From NCBI GenBank assembly GCA_028749475.1, contig JAQVWN010000014.1:1-46065 (forward strand): a stretch of 46,065 bases of DNA, written 5' to 3'. A program made the position numbers and the translations under genes. Under the pieces are notes generated by a model. That model searched no databases, was not told the DNA's origin, and saw only the letters and a program-made list of their open reading frames with translations. The DNA is from Thomasclavelia sp. (GTDB lineage: Bacteria > Bacillota_I > Bacilli_A > Erysipelotrichales > Coprobacillaceae). This document shows positions 39,710 to 46,065 of the stretch, one piece after another (the first letter of the stretch is position 1; every line of letters begins with the position of its first letter).

Positions 39710-40819
39710 TTACATTGTTCTTACTGGAAGTAATAATTGAAGTAAATCATCTTTTTCATAATCAGTTACTACAAATGGTTTATTATTTTCAGTAAAACAT
39801 ATTTTTATTTTACCGGCATTAAATGATTTAATGGCATCATTAGCATACTTACTACTAAATGAAATAGTTAAAGGTTCTCCTTTAAAGAATGCAGAAGATA
39901 AGTTTTCTTCAGCTGATCCAACTTCTTGAGAATAAGAAGATAAGATAACTCTATCTTCAGACATATCAAGTTTAATAATATTATTTTGATCAGTTGAAAG
40001 TAAACTAACTCTATCAATTGCACTTTGAAGATATAAATTATCAATTGTTAGTTCATGACCATATTCACTTGGAATTAGTCTTGCAGTATCTGGAAAAGAA
40101 CCATCAATTAACCTTGTTTGAATTAAACTATTGTTTAAAGAGAAAAGTATTTTACGATCAGATACAAAGATTTCCATATTTTCATCTTTTTCAATAATTT
40201 TACTTATTTCATCTAATGATAACTTAGGAATAGTTATATTAAAACTAATATCATTATCTAAAGATACAATCTTTTTAGCTAAACGATATGAATCAGTAGC
40301 TACACATTCTAATTGACCATTATTTGCTTTAAAGTTAATACCAGTTAAAACTGGTTTATTTTCTTTATCACTAGCTGCAAATTTAGTTTCATTAATAATA
40401 TCTTTTAATAAGAATGAACTCATTACAAAATTAGAACCTGTTTTAGATAAATCTATTCGAGGATATTCAATTGGATCAATACCATTTAAATCAATCTTAG
40501 ATTTATCACCAGTAATTCTAGTAAGAAAACCATCAATAATTTCAATATCAAGATACTCAGCATCAAACTTTCTAACAGTATCTAAAACATATCGACTATT
40601 TAATACTACAGATCCTTCTTCTATTACTTCTAAATCTTCATCATCTTTTATTACTGTTCTAATAGTTAAATCACTATCACTACCAGTAAGTATTAATCGA
40701 TCAGATAATAATTCAAATTTAACACCAATTAAAACAGCAAGAGGTGTTTTTAAAGATACAGCTTTAGTAGCTTTAGCTAAAGCATTTAATAGTTTTAATC
40801 TTTTGATTCTAAATTTCAT
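39710..40819 (-). CDS. dnaN: DNA polymerase III beta subunit (sliding clamp)
   Basis: The ring-shaped processivity clamp (369 residues) of the replicase. It has the three similar clamp domains; FKFRIKRLKLLNALAKATKA-type N-terminus (here MKFRIKRLKLLNALAKA), the central DKENKPVLTGINFKANNGQL and the C-terminal VTDYEKDDLLQLLLPVRTM, whose ending forms part of the protein-binding pocket. The ATG has AAAAGGAGC before it, and the gene follows the origin-unwinding region after dnaA. Confidence 0.98.
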   Translation of the reverse strand: MKFRIKRLKLLNALAKATKAVSLKTPLAVLIGVKFELLSDRLILTGSDSDLTIRTVIKDDEDLEVIEEGSVVLNSRYVLDTVRKFDAEYLDIEIIDGFLTRITGDKSKIDLNGIDPIEYPRIDLSKTGSNFVMSSFLLKDIINETKFAASDKENKPVLTGINFKANNGQLECVATDSYRLAKKIVSLDNDISFNITIPKLSLDEISKIIEKDENMEIFVSDRKILFSLNNSLIQTRLIDGSFPDTARLIPSEYGHELTIDNLYLQSAIDRVSLLSTDQNNIIKLDMSEDRVILSSYSQEVGSAEENLSSAFFKGEPLTISFSSKYANDAIKSFNAGKIKICFTENNKPFVVTDYEKDDLLQLLLPVRTM

Positions 40820-40849
40820 TTTAAGCTCCTTTTATATAATTATTTAATA

Positions 40850-40941
40850 GTTTTATTATTACTATTATAGTGTGAATATTGTGAATATCTCAAAAAACAT
40901 TGATTTAATAACACTTTTTTATGTTACCACAGTGTGAATAA
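40850..40941 (-). other. dnaA-dnaN origin element: DnaA boxes with DnaA-trios
   Basis: Read on the - strand from dnaA toward dnaN: a box TTATTCACA (40933-40941), then two abutting boxes ATATTCACA (40880-40888 and 40871-40879), then CTA and five consecutive triplets TAA-TAG-TAA-TAA-TAA (40853-40867), then AT-rich DNA up to dnaN. This is the layout of the Bacillus basal unwinding system, where DnaA bound at two boxes extends onto trios and opens the duplex. Confidence 0.75.
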
Positions 40942-40959
40942 AGATGTTCTTAAATGTGA

Positions 40960-42294
40960 TTAACCAATCTTTTTCTTTAATTCTTCATAAGCTTTTTTAT
41001 ACTGAACTTCTTTAGATATTCTCTTTTGAACTCGAGAACAAGCTTTCATAATAGTTGAATGATCTCGATTAGAAAATAATTTTCCAATATCAGCATATGT
41101 AGTATCAGTTTTTTGTCTAATTAAATACATACATAATTCTCTAGGAACTAATAATGTAGCGGTTTTAGTTTTACTAGTTAGTTCTCTAACTTGTAAGAAA
41201 TAAGTATCAGCGACTATCTTTAAGATAGATTCCGGTGTTATTTCAACGCCATTATTAATACCATTATCATTTTGAAATGCCCCTAGCGCAAAATCTAAAT
41301 CAACATGATTCTTACATTCCATGATAGCACAAAAGAATAGTGTATTTAAGTGACCTTCAAGATTTCTAACATCAGTACAATAGTTAGTAGCCATATAATC
41401 GATTACAGATTCATCAATAATAAGTTCACTACTATCACTACTAAAGTTATCTTGATATTTTAATTTCTTATAAAGAATAGCTTTGGCAGTTTCAAATTCT
41501 GGTGGATCAATACCAAAAGATAAACCGCTTTTAAATCTACTAATTAATCTATCTTCAATTCCATTTAATTCATCTGGTGTTTTATCAGAAGTAATGACAA
41601 TTTGTTTACCATTATTAATTAATTCATTAAATATATGGAAAAACATTTCACTACTTTTTTCCTTATTAATCAAGAATTGAATATCATCTAATAATAAGAT
41701 ATCAATATTTTTATAGTTATCATATAAATCATCAGCTTGACGAGATCTTAAAGAATCAACGATTTCATCGACAAAATCTTTACTACTTATATATAAAACA
41801 TTAATGTCTGGATTATTTTTTATTGCGCAATTTCCAATCGCGTTTAGTAAATGGGTTTTTCCTAACCCTGGATTACTATATATAAATAAAGGATTAAAAC
41901 TTCCGGGCTTAGTAGCAACCATATAGGATGCATTTTGAGCCATTTTGTTGCACCCACCAACAACAAAATTATCAAATATCATTTCTTTATTTAAATGATT
42001 TGCTTTATTTTCCTTTATTTCTTCTTTAACTTGTAATTCATTATATTGTTCTTCCGATTTAATTTCTATTGTAATCGGTTGATGTAAAATACTAGTTAAA
42101 GCTTCCTCAATTTGTGTTTTGTCCTCTTGTATTGCTGGAATATTGAATTCCATGTCCGTTAAAATTGTCGCAACACCATTACTTATGTTTGCGATTTTAA
42201 TGGGTTCTAAAAAACTGTTTATTATTACATCATCAATAGCTGGGTTCTCTTTTAACGTATCAATACAAGTAGACCATATATCATCTAATTGCAT
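40960..42294 (-). CDS. dnaA: Chromosomal replication initiator DnaA
   Basis: The AAA+ initiator protein (444 residues). Domain I covers about residues 1-80, with a short linker. Domain III has Walker A NPGLGKTHLLNAIGN and Walker B ILLLDDIQFL, and domain IV carries the DNA-recognition helix with RDHSTIMKACSRV. The ATG is 13 bases after GGAGG, which is longer than usual, and no better in-frame start exists. A TATAAT (42368-42373) serves as a plausible -10 box. DnaA boxes lie on both sides of the gene. Confidence 0.98.
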   Translation of the reverse strand: MQLDDIWSTCIDTLKENPAIDDVIINSFLEPIKIANISNGVATILTDMEFNIPAIQEDKTQIEEALTSILHQPITIEIKSEEQYNELQVKEEIKENKANHLNKEMIFDNFVVGGCNKMAQNASYMVATKPGSFNPLFIYSNPGLGKTHLLNAIGNCAIKNNPDINVLYISSKDFVDEIVDSLRSRQADDLYDNYKNIDILLLDDIQFLINKEKSSEMFFHIFNELINNGKQIVITSDKTPDELNGIEDRLISRFKSGLSFGIDPPEFETAKAILYKKLKYQDNFSSDSSELIIDESVIDYMATNYCTDVRNLEGHLNTLFFCAIMECKNHVDLDFALGAFQNDNGINNGVEITPESILKIVADTYFLQVRELTSKTKTATLLVPRELCMYLIRQKTDTTYADIGKLFSNRDHSTIMKACSRVQKRISKEVQYKKAYEELKKKIG

Positions 42295-42854
42295 TAAATA
42301 TTTTTAACCTCCTTAATATAATTAGAGCTGATAATGCTTTCCCTCATTAACGACCCCTGTAAAGAATATTATATGTTAAAAAAAAGCTAATAAAAAGACA
42401 AAAATGTGAATAACTATTAATTCACATGAGTTATTCACATTTAATATATGATTTTTAGTGCTTTTAAGAGAGTTATTCACAATATTCACAAAATGATATG
42501 TGCACAAATGTTCCTATATGAACAAATAAATGTGAACATTGTGACCATAATTGTGAACAACTCTAGATATTCATACGTTATTCACAATTAAAAGTGTACG
42601 TATATCAATATTTACACGATTTATTCACAAATTCACATTGCTACATATCACAAGCAATAATTTGTGAGTTGAGTTTGTGAATATAAATCTAAATTAGTAT
42701 ATATATAATATAGAAAGAATAGTGAGTGATTTGGATATTAGTTTATATTTGTCAAGTAATATGTAAAATAGTGATTGACTTAAAGAAATAAAACAAGTAA
42801 AATGGACAAGCATATGTTTATAGTATAAAAAAATATAAATTTGGAGGTGTAACT
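42295..42854. other. oriC: oriC intergenic region with DnaA-box cluster
   Basis: A 560-base AT-rich gap without a gene, between divergent dnaA and rpmH. TTATTCACA boxes occur on the + strand at 42431, 42473, 42578 and 42621, and inverted at 42405. Near-matches occur at 42482 (ATATTCACA), 42531 (inverted ATGTTCACA), 42552 (inverted TTGTTCACA), 42629 and 42676. The common form is TTATTCACA rather than the textbook TTATCCACA. The dnaA and rpmH promoters occupy its ends. Confidence 0.92.
42775..42803 (+). promoter_or_regulatory. Promoter of rpmH-rnpA-yidC-jag
   Basis: TTGACT (42775-42780), a 17-base spacer and TAAAAT (42798-42803). Confidence 0.7.
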
Positions 42855-42989
42855 ATGAAAAGAACATATCAACCAAATAAAAGAAAAAGATCAAAAACTC
42901 ATGGTTTTAGAGCTAGAATGGCAACAGTTGGCGGAAGAAAAGTAATCGCTCGTCGCCGTAAAAGAGGAAGAAAAGTATTATCTGCTTAA
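42855..42989 (+). CDS. rpmH: 50S ribosomal protein L34
   Basis: A 44-residue, very basic ribosomal protein, beginning [18 protein letters not shown] and ending in an Arg/Lys-rich tail ([15 protein letters not shown]). The sequence is full length for the family. It has a strong TTGGAGGTG ribosome binding site eight bases before the ATG. It is the first gene right of the origin, its usual place. Confidence 0.98.
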
Positions 42990-45100: not shown

Positions 45101-45898
45101 ATGGGTACGTTAGAAAAATTAATTCAAACAAATAAAAGAAATAAAAGAAAAATAGAAATTGGATTCTTAGGATTCGTTATGGTTATGTATTGTAGTTTAT
45201 ATGTTGCATTTTCTGCTAGTGAAGTAAGTGCAGCAAATGATACAAGTAATACATTTAGTGATTCATATGTATTAACTAATACAAATGAATTTGAAAATGC
45301 TACAAATGATATCGTAACAAAAACTAAATTAGAAATAGATGCTCAACGTAAAAGAGAAGAAGAAGCAAGAATAGCTGAAGAAGCTAGAATTGCCGCTGAG
45401 CAAGCTCGTATTGCTGCTGAACAAGAAGCTGCAAGACAAGCTGAATTACAAAGACAAGCTGAAGAAGCTAAATATAGTGATTTTGGAGTACGTTCTACTT
45501 CATCAACTAAATCATATATGGATTATCGTAAGATAACTTCTACCGGGTCAGCCCAATATAAATTAATTCACTCTAGTGCAATTACTGTATCTGGTGATGA
45601 TGGAATGTTATATTCTAGTGATGGTTTTATTGGAGCAGCTCTTGGAAGCCGTTATGGAAAAATCGGATCTAAATGGCGTTTTACTTTATCAAGTGGAGCT
45701 CAAGTTAAGATTATCAAAGTTGATGAAAAAGCTGATCAACATACCAAAGATGGTTGTGAAGAAAGCTTAGATGGAAGTGTAATCGAATTCGTAGTAGATG
45801 TTTCAAAAGCAATACCTCATTACGGAGTTAATGGAGACTTTAACTCAGTAAGTAAATTTAGAGGTAATATCGTAAAAGTTGAAAAATACAACGGTTAA
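45101..45898 (+). CDS. Membrane-anchored coiled-coil surface protein with a compact C-terminal domain
   Basis: A 265-residue protein, function not recognised. It has a basic N-terminus, one hydrophobic helix (about residues 24-44, possibly a signal anchor), a short Asn/Thr linker, then an alanine-rich charged coiled coil (about 84-128, repeating EEARIAAEQARIAAEQ-type units). The C-terminal domain (about 158-265) is beta-rich, with ALGSRYGKIGSKWRFTLSSG, DEKADQHTKDGCEESLDGS and VIEFVVDVS; it resembles domains on extracellular wall-associated proteins but is not a clear 3D domain. The main ATG has only AGGA ten bases upstream. It is monocistronic, between a terminator and an IS30-type element. 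Confidence 0.8.
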   Translation: MGTLEKLIQTNKRNKRKIEIGFLGFVMVMYCSLYVAFSASEVSAANDTSNTFSDSYVLTNTNEFENATNDIVTKTKLEIDAQRKREEEARIAEEARIAAEQARIAAEQEAARQAELQRQAEEAKYSDFGVRSTSSTKSYMDYRKITSTGSAQYKLIHSSAITVSGDDGMLYSSDGFIGAALGSRYGKIGSKWRFTLSSGAQVKIIKVDEKADQHTKDGCEESLDGSVIEFVVDVSKAIPHYGVNGDFNSVSKFRGNIVKVEKYNG

Positions 45899-45940: not shown

Positions 45941-46065
45941 GTAAATTGTCAAAATAAGTGCAACACCTAATGCAAGTTATTTATTTATAACTTCTTTAGG
46001 TGTTTTATATTTTAAACATTTTCTAGGTCTGTTATTAAGTAATTCTAAATTATGTTCTAGTTCTA
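45941..46065 (-). mobile_element. 3' end of an IS30-type insertion sequence
   Basis: The window ends inside an element whose transposase gene runs leftward. The stretch ATTGTCAAAATAAGTGCAAC (from about 45945) next to the preceding terminator is a plausible terminal inverted repeat; the exact boundary cannot be set without the other end. Confidence 0.55.
45977..46065 (-). CDS. IS30-family transposase, C-terminal fragment
   Basis: Only the last 28 codons are visible. The residues NNRPRKCLKYKTPKEVINK at the end match the C-terminus common to IS30-family transposases (LNNRPRKCL-YKTP-E-F type). The DDE catalytic residues would lie further right, outside the window. The stop codon is TAA at 45977-45979. 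It is probably intact beyond the edge rather than broken, but this cannot be judged. Confidence 0.75.
   Translation of the reverse strand, partial: ELEHNLELLNNRPRKCLKYKTPKEVINK

Follow-up and report, generated by a model that had tools for sequence, protein, structure and literature searches.

The window analyzed here is the whole 46,065-nt stretch of Thomasclavelia sp. DNA (contig JAQVWN010000014.1). On the minus strand, Pfam hits, from which the gene names were read, placed gyrB, a recF-like gene, dnaN, and dnaA; the plus strand carries rpmH, rnpA, a yidC-type gene, and jag/khpB. This gene set is the classic origin neighborhood. DnaA boxes were present in both intergenic gaps, rpmH-dnaA (561 nt) and dnaA-dnaN (140 nt). 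The features are listed below with the evidence for each.

42855-42989, plus strand: rpmH (Pfam)
42295-42855: oriC1, the rpmH-dnaA gap with the larger DnaA-box cluster, boxes at 42405-42684 (box scan, shuffles)
40960-42294, minus strand: dnaA, 444 aa (Pfam Bac_DnaA and Bac_DnaA_C; part of it aligned ungapped to PDB 8btg)
40820-40959: oriC2, the dnaA-dnaN gap with boxes and unwinding element (box scan, shuffles, stability scan)
40933-40941, minus strand: distal DnaA box TTATTCACA (box scan)
40880-40888, minus strand: box 1 of the tandem pair, ATATTCACA, counterpart of B. subtilis DnaA-box#6 (box scan)
40871-40879, minus strand: box 2 of the tandem pair, ATATTCACA, counterpart of DnaA-box#7 (box scan)
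40869-40870: 2-nt spacer between box pair and array (sequence)
40854-40868, plus strand: variant DnaA-trio array 3'-TAT TAT CAT TAT TAT-5' (phase set by the invariance of positions 2 and 3 across 12 species)
40829-40869: least stable 40-nt stretch, overlapping the array; predicted opening site (nearest-neighbor scan)
39710-40819, minus strand: dnaN (Pfam)

Two further observations were made to the right of jag. Positions 45101-45898 encode a 265-aa secreted-looking protein, for which Pfam gave no hit at E 0.001. The reverse strand of 45965-46065, which is cut off by the contig end, reads NNRPRKCLKYKTPKEV by eye, and we take this to resemble the end of an IS-element transposase.

The rpmH-dnaA gap contained five exact copies of TTATNCACA and 10 boxes with at most one mismatch, and neither number was reached by any of 500 dinucleotide shuffles. 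The single exact box of the dnaA-dnaN gap was reached by 11 of 500 shuffles, and its three boxes with at most one mismatch by 5 of 500. These counts exceed chance, and together with the upstream boxes seen in all 22 comparable family genomes (see below) they bear out the bipartite origin, with boxes on both sides of dnaA, that an earlier note had proposed from the sequence of the window. The two main box types named there were also recovered: six of the 14 boxes near oriC were TTATTCACA and four were ATATTCACA. Genome-wide (1.84 Mb in 43 contigs), exact TTATTCACA occurred 20 times, six of them at this locus, and the control pattern, TTATTCACA read backwards, occurred 37 times. The T at position 5 of these boxes is ordinary, because it lies within the consensus TTWTNCACA given in the part of PMC7561715 that was available and because T is the commonest base at this position in the origin regions of the family (127 of 237 exact boxes).

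In the dnaA-dnaN gap, two ATATTCACA boxes abut on the minus strand (40888-40871) and are followed by CTATAATAGTAATAATAAAAC and AT-rich DNA, just as the earlier note had described. Its reading of the triplets fared less well. According to the available parts of PMC8287927, PMC6669920, and PMC10721633, DnaA-trios have the consensus 3'-GAT-5' with a conserved middle A, lie on the strand complementary to the boxes, and sit on a 5' tail that abuts the boxes with its 3' end. Canonical trios therefore read CTA or TTA on the box strand, and the C. difficile array in PMC7561715 does so. In a Bacillus locus (L117) with a DnaA 95% identical to the B. subtilis protein, the boxes TTATCCACA/ATATTCACA are followed by AGCC and then by CTA CTA GTA CTT CTA. 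In the window, the box strand reads ATA ATA GTA ATA ATA starting 2 nt past the second box, which places a middle A in every triplet of the bound strand. This phase gives five 3'-NAN-5' trios in a row, none of which is 3'-GAT-5'. An NTA array of this kind was reached by ~2 of 2000 mononucleotide shuffles (p 0.0015). The CTA and the five TAA/TAG triplets reported by the earlier note can be read on the box strand, but they take the wrong strand and phase for trios: in that phase, CTA yields one 3'-GAT-5', and each of the next five triplets has a middle T. The match to the Bacillus unwinding element that the note had drawn thus stands for the presence of a box pair and an array, but not for the triplets themselves, as the array that fits lacks 3'-GAT-5'. 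The operational definition of a basal unwinding system (BUS) in PMC8287927, as far as its available text goes, asks for three or more 3'-NAN-5' trios, a DnaA box or tandem pair no more than 16 bp away from them, and strand separation that depends on DnaA and ATP. The window has a ATATTCACA pair 2 nt from the array and five 3'-NAN-5' trios. By the narrower B. subtilis-type standard of mostly 3'-GAT-5' trios, the window falls outside, with 0 of 5.

The 40 nt starting at 40829/40830 were the least stable of all 46025 such stretches in the window. Next in order, after the immediate neighbors of this stretch, came the stretch at 42681 in the rpmH-dnaA gap. The interval 42681-42720, beside the last upstream box, thus ranks second in instability within the origin region and is a candidate second opening site. 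GC skew changed sign at the locus, as the earlier note had anticipated for an origin, but the cumulative minimum (42651) fell in the rpmH-dnaA gap, which goes part of the way toward the outcome that the same note had named as refuting its prediction. Being 1.8 kb away from the array and at the point where gene orientation switches, this minimum does not decide between the two gaps.

Conservation was evaluated in 30 genomes of the family, the comparison of boxes in relatives that the earlier note had called for. A box pair with an array was called in all 30 (scores 6.2-9.9). Upstream boxes (3-12 exact) were found in each of the 22 genomes in which rpmH bounded the gap; in the other 8 of the 30 the upstream gap could not be bounded. 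Array-like scores in the rpmH-dnaA gap ranged from 2.9 to 7.0, with 7.0 belonging to the window and at most 5.8 to any other genome, and the dnaA-dnaN array scored higher in 22 of 22 comparable genomes. A second unwinding element upstream of dnaA was considered and rejected, as the best matches there were weaker in 22 of 22 and shared no common sequence.

The phase of the array was derived from a 12-species set, made up of the window and 11 relatives from its family, with D187 and either Y or L at position 202 of DnaA. In this set the boxes abut and the spacer is 2 nt. Across trios 1-4, positions 2 and 3 (T and A on the box strand) varied in none of eight columns, whereas position 1 varied in three of four (Fisher p 0.018). 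Invariant positions 2 and 3 with a variable position 1 are what the middle-A phase predicts. The first bases of the five trios on the box strand were A in 39 cases, G in 10, C in 8, and T in 3, so that a pyrimidine was the first base on the bound strand in 49 of 60 trios. When the 60 nt following the boxes were shuffled, at most 1.5% of shuffles reached the NTA count in each of the 12 species. Among the other 18 family genomes, this fraction was 0.6-3% in seven and about 20% in 11; the latter carry TTA/ATT repeats, in which the phase is ambiguous and NTA is not above shuffles. Of note, several relatives (L002, L004-L007, L009-L011, and L013) share CATAAAAAACATTGATnnnATCAATnnTTTTT between the distal boxes and the pair, corresponding to 40892-40926 in the window. 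This near-palindrome with A and T runs was present in all ten sequences aligned, in degenerate form in the window, and by its sequence could possibly be a protein site or a weak hairpin.

Two other readings of the DNA beside the box pair were weighed. If the trios lay on the box strand, as the TAA/TAG triplets of the earlier note imply, DnaA would engage that strand. The triplets can indeed be read there, but published scaffolds and structure, in the parts available, place the trio on the complementary strand with its 3' end toward the boxes, and the box strand of the 41 R202 comparison origins in which a BUS was called (see below) shows CTA/TTA-like triplets. The latter pattern is consistent with the strand rule but not independent of it, because our scorer assumes a middle T. 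This reading contradicts the published rule, and we rejected it as highly improbable. The other reading starts from a promoter-like TTGAGA-18-TATAAT on the minus strand (40864-40893), which has 11 of 12 matches and holds both BUS boxes in its spacer. By sequence, dnaN may be driven from this site under DnaA control. Box pair and TATAAT could then be chiefly a DnaA-controlled dnaN promoter, the triplets a -10 box with an AT-rich leader, and the rpmH-dnaA gap, with its skew minimum and very unstable stretch, the place of opening. However, the region has no excess of promoter-like sites (14 vs 18.7 in shuffles), CTA as the first triplet leaves no TATAAT in 7 of the 12 close species although the array is kept, and the rpmH-dnaA gap has no conserved array. 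Moreover, promoter and unwinding roles can coexist. We therefore regard a promoter as the chief function as unlikely. Opening in the dnaA-dnaN gap is the best reading, because each of the 30 family genomes has this layout, which corresponds to that of the bipartite origins in Bacillus and C. difficile. The earlier note had predicted opening here, and the prediction gains support from the anatomy, the family recurrence, the stability minimum at the array, and, by analogy, B. subtilis and C. difficile as precedents.

Like the array, the DnaA protein of the window differs from its B. subtilis counterpart. In the cryo-EM model of B. subtilis DnaA described in the available part of PMC10721633, R202 and E228 hold the captured G, and N187 holds the captured A. 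Our ungapped alignment to PDB 8btg gave E183K, N187D, I190V, I193L, R202Y, and E228M in the window protein. None of the five base-capture residues (N187, I190, I193, R202, and E228) is identical in the window, where they are D, V, L, Y, and M; V190 and L193 keep the hydrophobic character.

To place these changes, 150 genomes of the class (the window, 29 others of its family, and 120 others of the class) were set against 78 of 80 named loci from, e.g., Bacillus, Paenibacillus, Clostridium, Enterococcus, Actinobacteria, and Chloroflexi. The 150 are part of all genomes with a DnaA match, and the phylum-level search used in the sampling yielded genomes of the same class only. Genomes in which TGA encodes an amino acid also belong to this class, so that the window likely comes from an Erysipelotrichia/Mollicutes-like branch. 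The 80 named loci came from an alignment-based contig scan; the window DnaA alone as a query matched no relative. Two loci with no dnaA frame found (L149 and L172), seven duplicate loci, and genomes lacking a BUS call were dropped before the counts. The BUS scorer used box matches and, on the box strand, the middle T and the third A, but never the first base.

R202 was found in 4 of 150 class genomes versus 66 of 78 comparison loci, N187 in 33 of 150 versus 77 of 78, and E228 in 74 of 150 versus 78 of 78. A BUS was called in 125 of the 150 class genomes, comprising all 4 with R202 and 121 of the 146 lacking it. Among the 78 comparison loci, 45 received a call (41 of the 66 with R202 and 4 of the 12 lacking it). 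In the class, G was the first captured base in 53 of 605 trios without R202 and in 11 of 20 with it; in the comparison loci the corresponding counts were 11 of 20 without and 150 of 205 with R202. The remaining G were unevenly placed. Class genomes without R202 had G in 40 of 121 first trios and in 13 of 484 trios 2-5, and comparison loci with R202 in 36 of 41 and 114 of 164, respectively. Below 35% GC, trio G amounted to 47 of 545 in the class without R202 versus 42 of 65 in the comparison loci with R202. Low GC alone is thus an insufficient explanation, because AT-rich comparison genomes with R202 keep G.

The simple rule that loss of R202 means loss of G proved too simple and was discarded. 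Outside the group, all four loci with K or Q at position 202 and a call (L162, L170, L184, and L196) have G-bearing trios. Once R202 is lost, E228 is immaterial for G (29 of 250 first bases with E228 and 24 of 355 without). Within the sample, L047 has R202 with one G and L138 has R202 with none, and L008, L084, and L206 lack R202 and have two G. Apart from the base-capture residues, position 222 is A or S in L055, L077, L081, L083, L088, L096, and L102, and in L061-L066, L072, and L076; K222 of B. subtilis touches the DNA backbone in the structural model, as far as its available description goes.

The history of these changes was followed in a FastTree phylogeny of 127 DnaA proteins, built with the pocket columns omitted, with 13 near-duplicates removed by hand, and with 30 of the 78 comparison loci. 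Three R202 genomes of one order (L085, L087, and L100) branch first in the class, with G in 3, 4, and 3 of their five trios, respectively. The other 94 class rows follow with a support of 81, which is below the star of the tool, and all of them lack R202 except L047. A search for further genomes of the early-branching R202 order found only these three. With only 4 pairs, the phylogenetic independent-pairs sign test had no power. Pocket change and G loss amount to essentially one evolutionary event, and for this reason co-evolution is a strong lead but not proof; that the two changes depend on each other is, on this comparison of sequences, a lead only.

Two explanations of this event compete. 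With origin and opening site as read above, the pocket may have changed first, so that the first trio base was freed and drifted toward the local AT-rich composition, with DnaA reading the middle A and the backbone rather than a new dinucleotide. The single main event is compatible with this course, and so is the composition of the array: on the box strand, the first bases of trios 2-5 are 69% A and 24% T, as against 54% A and 29% T in the 40 nt past the array. Relaxation may therefore suffice, and it is a serious rival, because the first bases resemble their background; we give it nearly an even chance. Nevertheless, AT-rich comparison genomes with R202 keep G (the 42 of 65 above), pyrimidines make up 49 of the 60 first bases on the bound strand in the 12-species clade, and G is kept in trio 1 in a third of cases (40 of 121), which pure drift does not predict. 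As a more tentative proposal, which we hold to be possible though somewhat doubtful, a large group uses a second trio code, in which R202 was lost, 3'-TA-5' or 3'-CA-5' is captured instead of 3'-GA-5', and pocket and trio changed jointly, the box-adjacent trio often keeping G.

Overall, the locus is very probably the chromosomal oriC, bipartite, with opening predicted in the dnaA-dnaN gap and with an altered trio and a changed DnaA pocket. The DNA anatomy, its recurrence in relatives, and the DnaA residues were observed directly in this analysis; for DnaA binding, the filament, and the opening site, we infer the following course from B. subtilis and C. difficile. DnaA would load on the boxes in both the rpmH-dnaA and the dnaA-dnaN gap, and the abutting, co-oriented boxes at 40871-40888 would seat a pair of DnaA molecules. 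From this pair, a filament of ATP-DnaA would extend onto the plus strand over 40868-40854 and stretch that strand. The duplex would then open toward dnaN, where the helicase would be loaded. The filament would read the altered trio by its middle A, as in Bacillus, and the base captured first would be T or C rather than G; this trio would be met by the changed pocket, with Y for R202, M for E228, and D for N187.

Neither a bipartite oriC with a BUS nor T at box position 5, which the consensus allows, is new. Co-variation of trio and pocket, with the trio G and the G-holding residues lost together across a large group, was not found in the titles and abstract openings of the literature on DnaA-trios, nucleobase capture, and oriC. 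Some of the trio pattern may have been published already, since the available text of a 2021 survey (PMC8287927) points to per-phylum trio figures in its supplement. The nucleobase-capture model of how DnaA finds and opens origins rests mainly on one species. The group studied here offers a natural experiment, in which the G-holding residues are mostly gone and most G is gone, whereas boxes, spacing, and the captured A are kept. Swaps of pocket and trio between lineages would be a direct test of base capture and of how an essential protein-DNA code can change. In practical terms, trio searches tuned to 3'-GAT-5' will under-rate the origins of this group.

Among known systems, the B. subtilis BUS (oriC, incC; DnaA-box#6/#7 with trios) shares with the window the position in the dnaA-dnaN gap, the two co-oriented boxes, the array of middle-A triplets on the complementary strand, and the unstable DNA beyond. 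In contrast to B. subtilis, the window array has no 3'-GAT-5', and N187, R202, and E228 are replaced in the window DnaA. The spacer is 2 nt in the window versus the usual GC-rich 4 nt in the comparison loci. C. difficile, which has an AT-rich genome, also has a bipartite oriC with box clusters in the rpmH-dnaA and dnaA-dnaN gaps. According to the available part of PMC7561715, opening in vitro takes place there at oriC2, in the dnaA-dnaN gap, and both clusters are needed for DnaA-dependent opening. The array given in the same source, CTACTACTATTACTACTA, is mostly GAT, unlike that of the window. The bipartite oriC of Helicobacter pylori, as described in partly available sources, likewise has two box clusters around dnaA and a trio beside a box; this bacterium is distant, and the likeness concerns the layout.
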